This document shows, piece by piece, positions 35,971 through 42,506 of a stretch of DNA of 64,000 nucleotides (positions are counted from its first letter, which is position 1; the number at the start of each line of letters is the position of its first letter). The stretch covers positions 2,439,501 to 2,503,500 of the forward strand of contig NZ_CP014213.1 of NCBI RefSeq assembly GCF_003268005.1, in the 5' to 3' direction. Under the pieces are notes generated by a model that saw only the letters and a program-made list of their open reading frames with translations, did not search any database and had not been told where the DNA came from. The position numbers and the translations under genes are program-made. This stretch comes from Methanosphaera sp. BMS (lineage in GTDB: Archaea > Methanobacteriota > Methanobacteria > Methanobacteriales > Methanobacteriaceae).

Positions 35971-36630
35971 CATTAACAGAGTCCTTATTAAGCAGTGTAA
36001 GAATCTTATTAATTTTAGAATGCATAGATACTAAGTTACCGAAGACTTCACAAATTTGTATTGTCCTGTTGACAATTCACTTATTGTATTTTCTTTCCCT
36101 GAGCTACACATGAAAATATATTGTAAGAATCAATATATACACTTATATGCTCTTGAAATTATTATTAAAATTTAATTCAGGTATTTTATGTCATATTGAA
36201 TTTATATGAAAAATTTTGATTTAAAATAAGCTCTGAAAATCTTTATTTTTGGTAATGGTTATTTTTATTTTTGAAAAATTTTTTTGAAAAATTTAAAGCT
36301 CTCAGAAAGAGTTATTCCTTCAATAAATAATGGTAAATGGCATATATTTTAAGAAAAAACTATTAAAGGATTCACCGGGTATCCATATTAGATAGGAAAA
36401 AGCAGTAATACTTTTTTGCAAAGTACACCCCCTAAATTAATACAACCCCCACAATTTTTTAAAGTCTCATTGTTTATTTTAATAGTTATGTTTATTAATA
36501 ACTTAAGACATAACGTTTGATGTTGTTAATCGATTTAGATGTGAAGATATTTAAATTGATTTATACATTTAACAACAAATTAACTGTTTTAATAATTAAT
36601 TAATCAATAAAAGAATAAAATAGGAGGCTA
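35971..36630. other. intergenic region upstream of the large surface protein
   Basis: About 660 bp with no supported gene. The part to about 36190 probably still belongs to the decayed transposase element. A short C-rich patch with ACACCCCCTAAATT and ACAACCCCCACAA lies at 36422-36455 and is unusual for this AT-rich DNA. The last 60 bases are strongly AT-rich and carry an AGGAGG ribosome site at 36622. Confidence 0.35.
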
Positions 36631-36636
36631 ATATTT

Positions 36637-39600
36637 ATTAATTATAAGAAGATTATCTTGTTTTTGTTTATTATTCTCTCTTGTATTAGTGTAGTATGTG
36701 CTATGGATGTCAGCAAATCAAGTAATGCAGACATTAGCACTACGGCAAGTGCAAGTTATGATAATAATATAAAACAGGACATTGATGAAGAGTTATATGA
36801 TGATGAAATTATTCCTGATAATAATTTCGAGGATGGATATGAAAATTCCGAGATAATAGAATTAAACGATACGACAATTGATGATGAGGAGGAAGAATTT
36901 ATCGAAGATGATAAATCCACAGATTCAGCCCGTCATAACCCAGATAATATTAAGGGAAGTGGAGATACTAGTGCTATTGTAAGTAACACCACCACGGCTT
37001 TAAGTGTAAAGGTAGTTCTAAGTAAACTCACATCCACTACATATAATACTACTTTTAGTGGTGTAAACAACTGTACGGTTTATTATACTTTAAATGGTGC
37101 TAATCCAACAACCGGCAGTACCAAATACACAAAGGCATTTGTTTATGATACGAGTAAGACTTTGAAGTATTTTGCCGTTAAAGAAAACGGTGAATGTGGT
37201 GCAGTTCTATCCATGAAGCTTAGTGAAGGCTCAACGCCATACATTGTATACAAGACGCCGATAACTAATCAGGCACAAGACGTATACATTTCATATACCT
37301 TGCCCACAACCAGCATATATTATACAATCGACGGCAGCACGCCAACAACAAGCAGTACCAAGTATAATGCACCCATAAAGATAAATAACTATACTGACCT
37401 ACGATTTATCTCAGTATACGGATCAATAACCAGCAACGTCTATAGTTATCGTATGAATGCGGTTAAACCCGTGCTAACAATCAAAAACATTACCGATGTA
37501 CGTGACAACTATCAGAACATAACGGTAAAAATAAACAAGGCAGGTACAATTTATTATACGAGAAACGGATCAACACCCAATACCAGCTGCAACACATGGA
37601 CTAACAACACCAAGGTAATGATATCAATAAAAACACAGGTAAGAGCAATACTAATAGATAACGAAGGATTCACATCAACTGTAACATTTTACCAGCCACC
37701 GAAGGTAATCACACCACCGATAACGGCAATAAGACCACTGACAACACTGGAAAACAACAAACAAAGAATACAATTCAGCATAAACAAACTAAACTGCACA
37801 GTATACTATACAACAGACGGTACAACTCCAAACAATAGTACAACAGTAAAAACAGCCAAAAACAATGATAAAATATACCTAAACAAAAACACACGACTAA
37901 AATACTACACACAAGATGACATACAACTTTACAAATCAAAAGTATACAATTACACACCAGTACAGCACCAGGACGAACGACCAACAATCACCATCATAAA
38001 CGTAACTAACATCTGGAGCAACGGACAGCAAAAAATAATCATACAATCCAATCAGCCAGGAAAATTCAACATAACAAAATACAACCAGACACAAGCACCA
38101 ACAGAAACACTAAACAACTACGGAAGCTACACAACAGATACCAATACTAAAATAGAAATATACACACAGTATAACACTAAATACTCCAAGACAATCGAGT
38201 ATCATCCAATTAATGGGTCTAAAACTGTTATGAGATATAATTATACTGTGAATTTTTCAAATATTACTCAGTATGAGTATATTTTCTTTACAGTAGGAAA
38301 TACTGAATATAAATATCATATGTATAACTCTAATTTAAATAATTATATATTTTTAAGTTTTTCTAATTATACTGTTACAACTAGTACTGTAGACTTTGCT
38401 AATGTTGAAGGTTGCATCATACATAAATCAGACATCTTAAGTGTTAAATTTAAGGTAAAAGAGTACGGAGAAATAAATTATGTTAATGTAATCTTTAAAT
38501 CTTTTACTTCTAAATATGAGAATATAATATTATATTCAAATGATTTAAAATTATTTACAATTACATTAGAGAAAAAACGAATTAAAAAGGAACAAGTAGA
38601 AACCATATTCCAAACAAACTCAAACCTGTTTATTAAAAATGAAACATTAACATTTAAACCAAAAGAAGTATATGGATGTGGACAATATGATGTACTACAA
38701 ACATATTTATTAACAAATCAAGCGATGACTACAGAATACGTTAACCAATCAATAAATTATTTTAAAAATCGTGACCCTAACCTAGATTTATTTAGGATAA
38801 CACCCCAGGACAGAACAATACTCACAGCAATAATGACATTATGGCAATATGATCAATATGCAAACTACTTGACATATGTATATAACCTAACAGCCATTAG
38901 AAGTGATGAAACATTAATCATCACAGGAATAAACTATGACCGGGTAAACTATATACAATATAATGACTTGAAAATGGGATTAGTAACGACGGGAAATGCT
39001 ACGAATAAATATTTGTTTAATATGCAATCCACGGCAAGATTACCTGAAATAGCAAGAATATCATTAAATTTAATAAAGGAAAAATTAGGAAGAACCGTTG
39101 CATCAATGTTTTTAAATTTAGATAAAAACTCAAAAGTATATCGAATTATTAACAATCAAACGAAAACAATAAAGATATGTTCTGAAGATTTGGAGAACAT
39201 ATATGTATTATTTAATGTAGAAACAGGAATAGTGGAGACGATAATCTCTTTAGATAATTGTATTTATAATGGTGCAATATCATATCCTTTAATAGAATAT
39301 AATGATACAGAAAACAACAGTAAAAACATTAAAAAATCATCAACGATGGAATGTTTTGAAGATAATTGTAATAATAATATGCTAAATAATTCTCATTCAT
39401 TAATAGGATTCTCTTCAGATAGTGGATGGGCAATAATAGAAAATGCTGTGGGTGGATTTTTAGCAGGAGCAGGTGTATCGATTCTAATAGGAGTAACTTC
39501 ACCTGAATCTGAAATATTGATTGCTGCAGGTGTTTTAATTGGTTCTGGAATATTTATATTAGCTGATTCTCATGGATTATTCTCTGGACATGCTACTTCT

Positions 39601-39867
39601 GAAGATATTCTTAATTTTCAGATTGATCTTACTATATTAGCTGTTGACCCAGCAATTACTGGTGTGTGTAATATTGTTGTAAGGAACGCATTTCTTAAAG
39701 TTACTGGTGAAGAATTATTCAAAATTAGTGAATTGGAAACATCACAGGAGATTAGAAACTTTTTAACGACAATGGATGAAATTAGAAATGGACTTATGGA
39801 CTGGGTTAGAGACAAGATTGAAGGATATATATTTGAAAAAACATATGACAACTTAACTAGTTTGTGA
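36637..39867 (+). CDS. large surface protein with chitobiase C-terminal-like (CHB_HEX_C) repeats
   Basis: About 1075 residues. A signal peptide NYKKIILFLFIILSCISVVCA is followed by an acidic Asp/Glu/Asn-rich linker. From roughly residue 115 to 520 there are five related domains with YYTLNGANPTTGSTKY-type signatures (also YYTIDGSTPTTSSTKY, YYTRNGSTPNTSC, YYTTDGTTPNNST), as in CHB_HEX_C/Fn3-like domains of glycan-active or adhesive proteins. The second half is unrelated and ends with hydrophobic Gly-rich segments (GGFLAGAGVSILIGVT, ILIAAGVLIGSGIFILAD). The signal peptide charges lie before the first usual start codon (TTG 36658), so translation probably begins at ATT 36637 or ATA 36631 behind AGGAGG. 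The next gene overlaps its stop. Confidence 0.72.
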   Translation: MNYKKIILFLFIILSCISVVCAMDVSKSSNADISTTASASYDNNIKQDIDEELYDDEIIPDNNFEDGYENSEIIELNDTTIDDEEEEFIEDDKSTDSARHNPDNIKGSGDTSAIVSNTTTALSVKVVLSKLTSTTYNTTFSGVNNCTVYYTLNGANPTTGSTKYTKAFVYDTSKTLKYFAVKENGECGAVLSMKLSEGSTPYIVYKTPITNQAQDVYISYTLPTTSIYYTIDGSTPTTSSTKYNAPIKINNYTDLRFISVYGSITSNVYSYRMNAVKPVLTIKNITDVRDNYQNITVKINKAGTIYYTRNGSTPNTSCNTWTNNTKVMISIKTQVRAILIDNEGFTSTVTFYQPPKVITPPITAIRPLTTLENNKQRIQFSINKLNCTVYYTTDGTTPNNSTTVKTAKNNDKIYLNKNTRLKYYTQDDIQLYKSKVYNYTPVQHQDERPTITIINVTNIWSNGQQKIIIQSNQPGKFNITKYNQTQAPTETLNNYGSYTTDTNTKIEIYTQYNTKYSKTIEYHPINGSKTVMRYNYTVNFSNITQYEYIFFTVGNTEYKYHMYNSNLNNYIFLSFSNYTVTTSTVDFANVEGCIIHKSDILSVKFKVKEYGEINYVNVIFKSFTSKYENIILYSNDLKLFTITLEKKRIKKEQVETIFQTNSNLFIKNETLTFKPKEVYGCGQYDVLQTYLLTNQAMTTEYVNQSINYFKNRDPNLDLFRITPQDRTILTAIMTLWQYDQYANYLTYVYNLTAIRSDETLIITGINYDRVNYIQYNDLKMGLVTTGNATNKYLFNMQSTARLPEIARISLNLIKEKLGRTVASMFLNLDKNSKVYRIINNQTKTIKICSEDLENIYVLFNVETGIVETIISLDNCIYNGAISYPLIEYNDTENNSKNIKKSSTMECFEDNCNNNMLNNSHSLIGFSSDSGWAIIENAVGGFLAGAGVSILIGVTSPESEILIAAGVLIGSGIFILADSHGLFSGHATSEDILNFQIDLTILAVDPAITGVCNIVVRNAFLKVTGEELFKISELETSQEIRNFLTTMDEIRNGLMDWVRDKIEGYIFEKTYDNLTSL

Positions 39868-39872
39868 TTATA

Positions 39873-40580
39873 ATGAATTGGATACTCTTATTTCTATTTA
39901 ACATTTTGTTCTGGGGAATAATATTCATATTACTTATTGAAAAAGGCATAGTATATAAGTTACCTTTATTTAATAGTGGATATACTATAGTTAACAGGAA
40001 AGATTTGGAAAATGATGATGTTGATTTTATGATTTATCATAAAAATAACTCATTATCTTTTCTTAGAAAAAGACAATTTGATGAAAATGGGTATATGAAA
40101 TTGTTAAATGATAAGGGAATAATCTTTTTTAAATTTATTGAAGCGTTATTCTATTTTTTAATATTTGCACCATGCATAATATTGTTTCCCAATATCTTCT
40201 TGACTAATGCATTTATTGCTTTTATTCTAATAATAGTATACGATGCTTTCATGATTTTACTTCGATTTAGATTATCTGATGAATCAATAAGTAACATTAA
40301 AACACCAAAGAAATTTAGTTATATAGGATATATGGTTTATTTTAATAGAATAAATGAGATTGCTAGTTTATTCATATTAATCCCATGTTGTAAAGGTAAT
40401 TATTTGGCTATTATCTTATTTATAGTGGTACTAACAAAAATGCATTTTAATTTATTTGCAGATATATTTGATAAGCATTTCAATTTGAAACTATTGAATG
40501 AAAAACTTATTAAGAAACTAATTCAAATAGAGAAATATTTTACATTATTAACGTTGCTATTATCATTCAATTTAATATGA
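39873..40580 (+). CDS. polytopic membrane protein coupled to the surface protein gene
   Basis: A 235-residue integral membrane protein with about five or six hydrophobic segments (MNWILLFLFNILFWGIIFIL, FIEALFYFLIFAPCIILFPN, AFIAFILIIVYDAFMILLRF, then two more near the end). No known family is recognised. The frame can also open at GTG 39864, which overlaps the upstream stop as GTGA. Tight coupling suggests it works with the surface protein, for example in export or anchoring; this is inference. Its surroundings are rich in mobile elements, so the pair may be acquired. Confidence 0.6.
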   Translation: MNWILLFLFNILFWGIIFILLIEKGIVYKLPLFNSGYTIVNRKDLENDDVDFMIYHKNNSLSFLRKRQFDENGYMKLLNDKGIIFFKFIEALFYFLIFAPCIILFPNIFLTNAFIAFILIIVYDAFMILLRFRLSDESISNIKTPKKFSYIGYMVYFNRINEIASLFILIPCCKGNYLAIILFIVVLTKMHFNLFADIFDKHFNLKLLNEKLIKKLIQIEKYFTLLTLLLSFNLI

Positions 40581-40837: not shown

Positions 40838-41079
40838 GTGGAAATTATTCCAATTAAAAATGGGCAAATGTTTAAGGCAAATTTCACTTATGAAGCACAA
40901 AAATATCCACTGGATTTAGATAAAGACAAAGTTATGGGTATTGATCTTGGAGTAAATAATTTTACAACAATAGTTACAACCGAAGACGCCATACATCGTG
41001 TACAGGAAAAAATTAAAAAATCAAATGGCAGTGTCCCAAATGCAGTCGGACTTCCTATAAATTTAATATTTTTTCAGTG
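40838..41079 (+). pseudogene. tnpB fragment, cut by an insertion sequence
   Basis: An open stretch with VEIIPIKNGQMFKANFTYEA, then PLDLDKDKVMGIDLGVNNFT, shows the beta-barrel and the first RuvC strand with the catalytic Asp (GIDLG) of TnpB. Neither the earlier N-terminal part nor the later RuvC parts and zinc finger are present. The frame runs into the left end of the ISNCY-like element near 41080. Sequence from 40737 may hold further degraded N-terminal parts. Confidence 0.65.
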
Positions 41080-42506
41080 GGTTGTATTACAAAGACTGGT
41101 AGGATAAAATCTTTTTTTCCTAAATATACTCTATAACTCCATCTGGATCTATTAGCCCTCATTTTTCTATCAACACTCTTATCTGTTCTATAATGTTTCT
41201 TTAACTTATTACCACATGTAACATTGAAAAATAATTCGACTAAATTATTTGTACTGGGTATTTCATTATTTTCAATGTGTTTAGTTAATTTATCAAATTT
41301 TTTATCTATTTTGTCAAGGGCATTGACTATAGAATCGGGTAATTTATCTTTCTCTTCTTTTAATCTGTTTAATCTATTTTTGGCTGTTTTAAGAGTTTTT
41401 GATTTGAATATTAAGGATATCTTATCCATATATTTATTTAGTTCTTTATCTTCCTTATTTAACGTTCGGATTTCTTGATTTGGTGTGGAGATCTGTCTGT
41501 TTTTGGATCGTATTTTTTCATATAATTTACGCTGTTTAGTCTCGTTTTTTTCGAAATCTACCTCGTTTATGAATGTATTGATTATTCAATTCTGTTAATT
41601 TTTCTTCAATAGTCTTAATTTTCTTTGATTTATTTTTCCTTTTCGTATTATTTCTATTTATTATCTTATATGGTTTATCACGCACATTCTGGATAGCATG
41701 AAAAGTACATAATGCCTGTTCTATTTCAAATTCTTTACAAATTGATGGATACATTGTATGACCATCAGTAATCATACATTCTCTAGGTAAATTTGATAAA
41801 ATCATATTCCAGTACTTTAAAGTAGTGTTAGAATCAAATTTATCGTGACTAATAATCATGGCAGATGCATATTTTGTGTTAGCATCAAGCAATTGTAATT
41901 TTGCTTTTTTATTTTTGGATACTTTCATAAACTGTTCATCATAATTATAGTTTCCACATGCTCTATTTCTTCTTTTTCAATTTCGGCATCAATTTCTTTT
42001 TCAACGGCAGTTAATATTTCATCACTAGTTTGGTCTTGGTTATTATACACAATAGACTTTGGTATTCTTATTCCAAAAATAGCTTCAAAAATTTCACTCA
42101 TTTTACGATAAGATATCTTTTCAATAAATTGAAGTCTAGAACCCAATTGTTTCATATTATTAGTATAATTAGAACCATCATCAATAAATTTATCTAATTT
42201 AGCCCTGTGTTTCTTACCACATTCCTTATCAAGACACCTATAAACAATTCTATAATCATTTGATAATTTATTAGGATAAAATTCTTCAACGGTACTCTCA
42301 ACCAATTCTAATCCACAATCAGGACGAATTGGATTTGATTTAAAATACAAAACGCTATCAATATCGGAGTTAAAGAATTCTAAAAACGTTATAACATCAG
42401 GTGAAACAGTATCTGGTAACATGACCAATAGTTTTTCTTCTTCACCGAAAAATTTAACTACTTCAAAATTAATACATATATCTGTAGGGGTTATTTTGCT
42501 TAACAT
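41055..42506 (-). pseudogene. ISNCY-like transposase with frameshifts
   Basis: Three minus-strand pieces follow each other. The first (42506-41925) holds ICINFEVVKFFGEEEKLLVM, a zinc-like segment and RKMSEIFEAIFGIRIPKS. A shift near 41940 breaks it; the other frame gives NYDEQFMKVSKNKKAKLQLL, which is the first Asp motif, then MITDGHTMYPSICKEFE and CTFHAIQNVRDKPYKII. A second shift near 41530 leads to the last piece with NNEIPSTNNLVELFFNVT, the Glu motif. The order equals the intact gene at 53417, although the sequences are far apart. The element ends appear to be 41080 and 42549 (GGTTGTA- and its complement -TAACC). Confidence 0.75.

Follow-up and report, generated by a model that had tools for sequence, protein, structure and literature searches.

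The window, a stretch of 64,000 nucleotides of the Methanosphaera sp. BMS genome (2,868,093 bases; here G000), carries a gene for a large protein with a hydrophobic N-terminus and a Ser/Thr/Asn-rich body (Table 1). Pfam recognizes four CHB_HEX_C_1 and four Fn3_assoc stretches in it, repeated domains that meet our criterion for an adhesin-like protein. No relative was found by sequence in the PDB. Between the gene and its orthologue in the close relative G013, 55 synonymous and 21 nonsynonymous differences were counted over 1064 codons (dN/dS = 0.096); a ratio of about 0.10 against another species indicates that the protein is kept. By its predicted features the product is like the adhesin-like proteins of gut methanogens, and its surface location and partner binding are without experimental data. 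A 238-amino-acid frame with a GTG start (39864 to 40580) shares 4 bases with the end of the surface gene; it has no Pfam match and possibly encodes a membrane protein made together with the surface protein. At 40838 to 42506, downstream of the surface gene, transposase-like frame pieces were recognized by eye on both strands.

Table 1. Features of the surface protein gene and of its start region, in window coordinates
Feature	Position	Strand	Basis
In-frame stop TAA, closes frame upstream	36616..36618	+	Read from sequence
Shine-Dalgarno sequence AGGAGG	36622..36627	+	Read from sequence; GGAGG kept in 8/8 copies
ATA, other candidate start, 3 bases from Shine-Dalgarno sequence, judged unlikely	36631..36633	+	Spacing distribution; invariant in 8/8
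ATT, proposed start codon, 9 bases from Shine-Dalgarno sequence	36637..36639	+	Invariant in 8/8; aligned with TTG of G006:C20 and G006:C24
Proposed signal peptide (M)NYKKIILFLFIILSCISVVCA	36637..36702	+	Translation; hydrophobic segment criterion; cleavage point by eye
Coding sequence, adhesin-like surface protein, 1076 codons and stop	36637..39867	+	Translation; dN/dS 0.096 versus G013
TTG, first usual start in frame; proposed Leu codon 8, not start	36658..36660	+	Frame reading; alignment of copies
Best Fn3_assoc stretch, one of four	37063..37215	+	Pfam PF13287
Best CHB_HEX_C_1 stretch, one of four	37267..37431	+	Pfam PF13290

The original prediction held that AGGAGG, the Shine-Dalgarno (SD) sequence of this gene, is followed by no ATG, GTG, or TTG at normal distance, and direct reading of the letters bore this out. 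We likewise confirmed that the first usual start in frame is TTG 36658, 30 bases after the SD, and that the frame is open upstream of this codon, opening at 36619. After AGGAGG the frame reads CTA ATA TTT ATT AAT TAT AAG AAG ATT ATC and then TTG 36658; an in-frame TAA stands just upstream, and from this stop to TTG 36658 the frame contains no usual start. In the sampled genome, most usual starts are 6 to 10 bases from the SD; ATT 36637 lies at 9 and ATA 36631 at 3.

This arrangement is common to the sister copies of the gene. Five intact paralogues in G000 and three copies in G013 all read GGAGGCTA-ATA-TTT-ATT-AA (8/8). The 19-mer GGAGGCTAATATTTATTAA has five mismatch-free occurrences in G000, each heading a long family member and none elsewhere in that genome, and three more in G013, with 19/19 positions invariant over the eight copies. 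The five full-length G000 members have open frames of 971 to 1091 codons without inner stops, and all satisfy our script criteria for an adhesin-like protein (long, Ser/Thr/Asn-rich, hydrophobic N-terminal segment). One of the three G013 copies (L074:4183-4581, in G013:C93) is open for only 128 codons and is either a truncated gene or an assembly fault. The paralogue pairs compared gave dS values of 0.64 to 1.07 and dN/dS values of 0.32 to 0.51, and ATT was kept in all. It had been proposed that homologues might read ATG at 36631 and that the gene had lost its start there by one base change. That idea had to be abandoned: 0/8 close copies read ATG at this place, and since none of the eight has a usual start, a recent loss does not hold. 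Loss of ATG in this single gene is likewise ruled out, ATA and ATT being common to 8/8 copies.

Over codons 2 to 7 after ATT, five alignment columns vary; each is a third codon position, and no change alters the amino acid (Asn AAT/AAC, Tyr TAT/TAC, Lys AAG/AAA twice, Ile ATT/ATA). Random placement would put 5/5 variable columns at third positions with a probability of 0.0007, which is only a guide because the copies are related; for the same reason the eight may share ATT by gene conversion and are therefore not independent. An AUU start calls for the absence of a usual start within SD reach in the coding frame, for an ATT at normal SD spacing that orthologues conserve, and for coding constraint that begins at or just after this ATT. 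All of this was met: the absence is the same in 8/8 copies, ATT 36637 at its spacing of 9 is conserved in 8/8 copies, and codons 2 to 7 vary only synonymously.

A separate observation concerns the copies L018 (G000:C1:122499-125729) and L050 (G013:C174), which show 0 synonymous and 2 nonsynonymous differences over 1082 codons; in contrast, dS between the window gene and its orthologue is 0.087. The near-identity of this pair across genomes reflects one of three things: recent transfer, conversion, or a mix-up in a draft genome.

We also read the N-termini of 12 distant family members, all from Methanosphaera genomes. In four (G001:C131, G006:C4, G003:C4, and G002:C17), ATT is the only candidate between the SD and the hydrophobic segment. 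A usual start is present in five, namely TTG in G006:C24 and G006:C20 and ATG in G016:C38, G008:C2, and G016:C28. The start of G016:C121 is ambiguous, with an ATG that overlaps the SD, and the remaining two give no N-terminus (G015:C11, frame broken; G013:C174b, a fragment). Both TTG starts stand in the place of the window ATT. G006:C24 reads AGGAGG-N9-TTG-AAT-TAT-AAG, with the same 9-base spacer, and G006:C20 reads GGAGG-N10-TTG-AAG-TAT-AAT-AAA, its N-terminus aligning without gaps.

To look beyond this family, we surveyed sampled stretches of four Methanosphaera genomes, G000 (502 kb, with the window and targeted regions included), G014 (400 kb), G007 (396 kb), and G008 (400 kb), and of G022 (240 kb), a genome of another genus and the only outgroup control. 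A plain codon survey mixes in intragenic positions; surveys for orphan SDs, in which a strong SD leads into an open frame that has no usual start nearby, were used instead. These returned 13 rows for G000, 2 for G014, 4 for G007, 10 for G008, and 8 for G022, and many of the Methanosphaera rows were spurious frames, transposon pieces, or intragenic positions. Genes with ATT, ATC, or ATA at the right spacing were judged credible by hand. Besides the window family, these were RNase Z (G014), QueE (G000 and G008), AzlC (G007), an adhesin-like gene (L271:2575, G008), and a secreted protein (L094, G000). None of the G022 rows (204 frames examined) was judged credible. By this rough, hand-read estimate, AUN starts amount to a few cases per 400 kb, or about 1 gene in 100. 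Of the 38 adhesin-like frames with 300 codons or more in the four Methanosphaera genomes, 6 combine ATT and an SD with the absence of a usual start, and 5 of these make up the window family; one more, L255 (G007), offers ATT behind GGGGG.

Two candidates from the survey were not counted. The case of NrpR in G014 (L107) is ambiguous, as translation could begin at an ATG eight codons further on, and a DUF4013 gene, the fourth to be flagged, speaks against a general pattern: ATG is present in the six homologues shown and lacking only in G007. The DUF4013 gene reads ATT-ATA-GAC in G007 (L258:14537) versus AAT-ATG-GAC in the sister genome G018 (L351); we read this as a recent ATG-to-ATA change confined to G007. 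Other frames were recorded as observations in their own right. A hydrogenase-maturation-protease-like frame of G014 (by eye; L119:1055-1232, minus strand) runs for 57 codons without a usual start, and its first part looks coding in a coding-potential survey that was otherwise too noisy to be used. In two transporter-like frames, MATE-like by eye (L091:8952 in G000 and L272:8569 in G008), more than 20 codons of a coding-looking stretch pass before the first usual start, with GTT and ATA among the codons on offer.

For RNase Z, QueE, and AzlC, we determined the start codon implied by homology across 20 Methanosphaera genomes. RNase Z with its N-terminus was present in 17/20, with ATT (10), ATA (6), or TTG (1) as codon 1, and in 15/17 ATG, GTG, and TTG are absent from codons −20 to +2. 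In G014 the NCBIfam TIGR02651 match begins with model position 1 at residue 3, and a usual start is first reached 30 codons into this protein. In other genera of this family, the codon immediately preceding a conserved GAA/GAG is ATG in 20/20 loci read (46 genomes matched, 26 left unread). This ATG aligns with codon 2 of the Methanosphaera genes, which leaves codon 1 (ATT/ATA/TTG) and codon 2 (ATA/ATT) as possible starts; except for the one TTG, both candidates are noncanonical. QueE was found in 20/20 genomes. The codon at the aligned start is ATT (13), ATC (4), GTT then ATT (2), or ACG (1), and 17/20 genes lack a usual start from −20 to +2. ATG stands at the aligned codon, or one codon earlier (2 loci), in 21/21 outgroup QueE loci assessed; of the 23 loci, L326 (misplaced by the script) and L332 (contig end) were left out. 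QueE provides the clearest replacement of ATG by ATT: ATG-AAA-GCT-CCA-ATA-ATT-GAA in the outgroup versus ATT-AAC-TCT-AAA-ATT-ATT-GAA in Methanosphaera. In some RNase Z (L138, L140) and QueE (L172, L184, L185) loci a stop codon directly precedes ATT, so that no upstream start is possible. AzlC matched in 10 genomes, and a distant match in G003 (24% identity) was left out; the aligned codon in the other nine is ATA (4), ATC (2), or ATT (3), and 5/9 lack a usual start from −20 to +2. Pooled over the three genes, ATT, ATC, or ATA occupies the aligned start in 42/46 cases, and 37/46 have no usual start from −20 to +2. These genes were selected on the strength of the survey hits, so their fractions do not represent the genome as a whole.

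Could the surface protein start elsewhere? Translation from TTG 36658, with the shorter N-terminus MFLFIILSCISVVCA still acting as a signal, has in its favor that this TTG is invariant in 8/8 copies and the first usual start in frame. We nevertheless regard it as improbable. Upstream of it, codons 2 to 7 change only synonymously, which makes it most likely that NYKKII is translated. The SD lies 30 bases away; before this TTG the 122k copy of G000 has AAAAAAATAATC, without an SD; G006:C20 has GTT at the same position; and the signal peptide would lose its positive charges. The original prediction had left the choice between ATT 36637 and ATA 36631 undecided, and here one half of it gains and the other loses. 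ATA 36631 and TTT 36634 are as invariant as ATT (8/8), and ATA is the apparent start elsewhere in the genus (RNase Z, 6/17; AzlC, 4/9). A start at ATA 36631 (or at TTT 36634) nonetheless seems to us a shade less probable even than one at TTG 36658: few usual starts lie as close to the SD as 3 bases, and in two homologues the usual start falls at ATT 36637 in the alignment, not at ATA 36631. These aligned TTGs and the spacing of 9 versus 3 thus point to ATT 36637, with further support from the synonymous-only change and from the other genes of the genus.

Alternatively, the copies might lack a start altogether and persist as silent cassettes from which an expressed copy receives sequence by gene conversion. 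Several similar paralogues do lie within one genome, and in some pairs the first 110 codons are closer than the whole gene (dS of 0.26 versus 1.07 for the window gene and the 372k copy), as gene conversion predicts. Yet all five full-length G000 copies read ATT, a copy with a usual start was not found in that genome, a good SD is present in each, and purifying selection acts on the orthologue pair from end to end; we consider such cassettes very unlikely. Least credible, to the point of being nearly negligible, is a start in another frame upstream followed by a programmed frameshift. Nothing beyond the missing in-frame usual start speaks for it, whereas a stop at 36616 closes the frame just ahead of the SD, and the SD itself has the position and conservation expected for a start at ATT.

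We therefore return to AUU 36637, which we hold with considerable confidence to be the real start, set by the strong SD with the third-base mismatch tolerated; there are no peptide, ribosome, or transcript data. What the sequences themselves establish is the absence of a usual start, the conservation of AUU, the coding constraint right after it, and the alignment with usual starts of homologues. The AGGAGG 9 bases upstream would place the small subunit at AUU 36637, where initiator Met-tRNA would accept the codon despite the mismatch. The product would begin Met-Asn-Tyr-Lys-Lys and carry a complete signal peptide. That Met is the first residue and that initiation is weaker than at AUG are inferences only; weaker initiation would imply an output that is low or dependent on initiation factors. 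The AUU would be an old, kept feature of the surface gene family, and the family one case of a wider Methanosphaera habit of starting a minority of genes, housekeeping genes included, at AUU, AUC, or AUA. Points against the AUU reading are the usual start in 5/12 distant family members, the possible sharing of ATT among the close copies by gene conversion, the single outgroup genome that served as control in the survey, and the presence, with an unchanged loop, of aIF1, which is held to discriminate against such starts.

In Sulfolobus, aIF1 discriminates against noncanonical starts, as far as the portions of the two reports available to us go (PMC6237735, PMC8211752). We found aIF1 in 15/20 Methanosphaera genomes, the misses being draft genomes, and this presence rules out its loss as the cause. 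The aIF1 loop reads RRRFGK, as in outgroups (12/13 rows readable by script). The initiator tRNA showed no change in its anticodon arm, which is the same in the 16/20 genomes where the pattern was found. Strong SDs together with AT-rich leaders may cause the tolerance of AUN, which is a guess.

Together, these results lead us to favor, with some reservation, relaxed start selection in Methanosphaera, such that any AUN near an SD starts a gene, in about 1 gene in 100, RNase Z and QueE included. The apparent genus-wide use of AUU, AUC, and AUA would be a larger find than the single gene; peptide or ribosome-profiling proof is lacking. If true, it amounts to a lineage-wide change of initiation rules in an archaeon, and the genus, one of human and animal gut archaea, would be a natural system for the acceptance of third-base mismatches in archaea and for the role of aIF1 and its partners. 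In the surface protein family, AUU is perhaps kept as a low or adjustable translation setting, and surface proteins with an AUU-dependent signal peptide may be tuned by initiation fidelity. With the sister copies, and some everyday genes of the genus too, apparently following this pattern, ATG, GTG, and TTG may not suffice to read Methanosphaera genomes; gene finders that accept no other starts would truncate or miss genes of this kind, including RNase Z and QueE.

We searched the literature for AUU/ATT and noncanonical starts, archaea, methanogens, Methanosphaera, translation initiation, and aIF1; the Methanosphaera stadtmanae genome paper was not covered. No paper on AUU starts in Methanosphaera was found among the matches listed (titles and abstract openings, with most subscription papers outside the scope). 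The window protein resembles the adhesin-like proteins of M. stadtmanae and Methanobrevibacter smithii, which are long, N-terminally membrane-targeted, repetitive, and at the surface of gut methanogens, according to the part of the report accessible to us (PMC11532034). That report differs from the present analysis in that its main text, to the extent available, does not contain "start codon," "start site," or "signal peptide" (PMC11532034). Bacterial precedents for a noncanonical start are infC (ATT) and sigR (GTC), per the available sections of one source (PMC5472188). In those sections, sigR of Streptomyces is like the window gene in having a conserved noncanonical start behind an extensive SD, and its start was misplaced by annotation; it differs in that the codon is GTC, not AUN, and in that repression by IF3 was shown for sigR, with nothing comparable for the window gene (PMC5472188). 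The likeness to infC, within the same limits of the source, is a conserved noncanonical AUN start in a needed gene (PMC5472188). The infC case, by contrast, is bacterial and autoregulated by IF3. To our knowledge, archaea lack IF3, and the starts described here belong to surface protein genes and to several unrelated genes of an archaeal genus.
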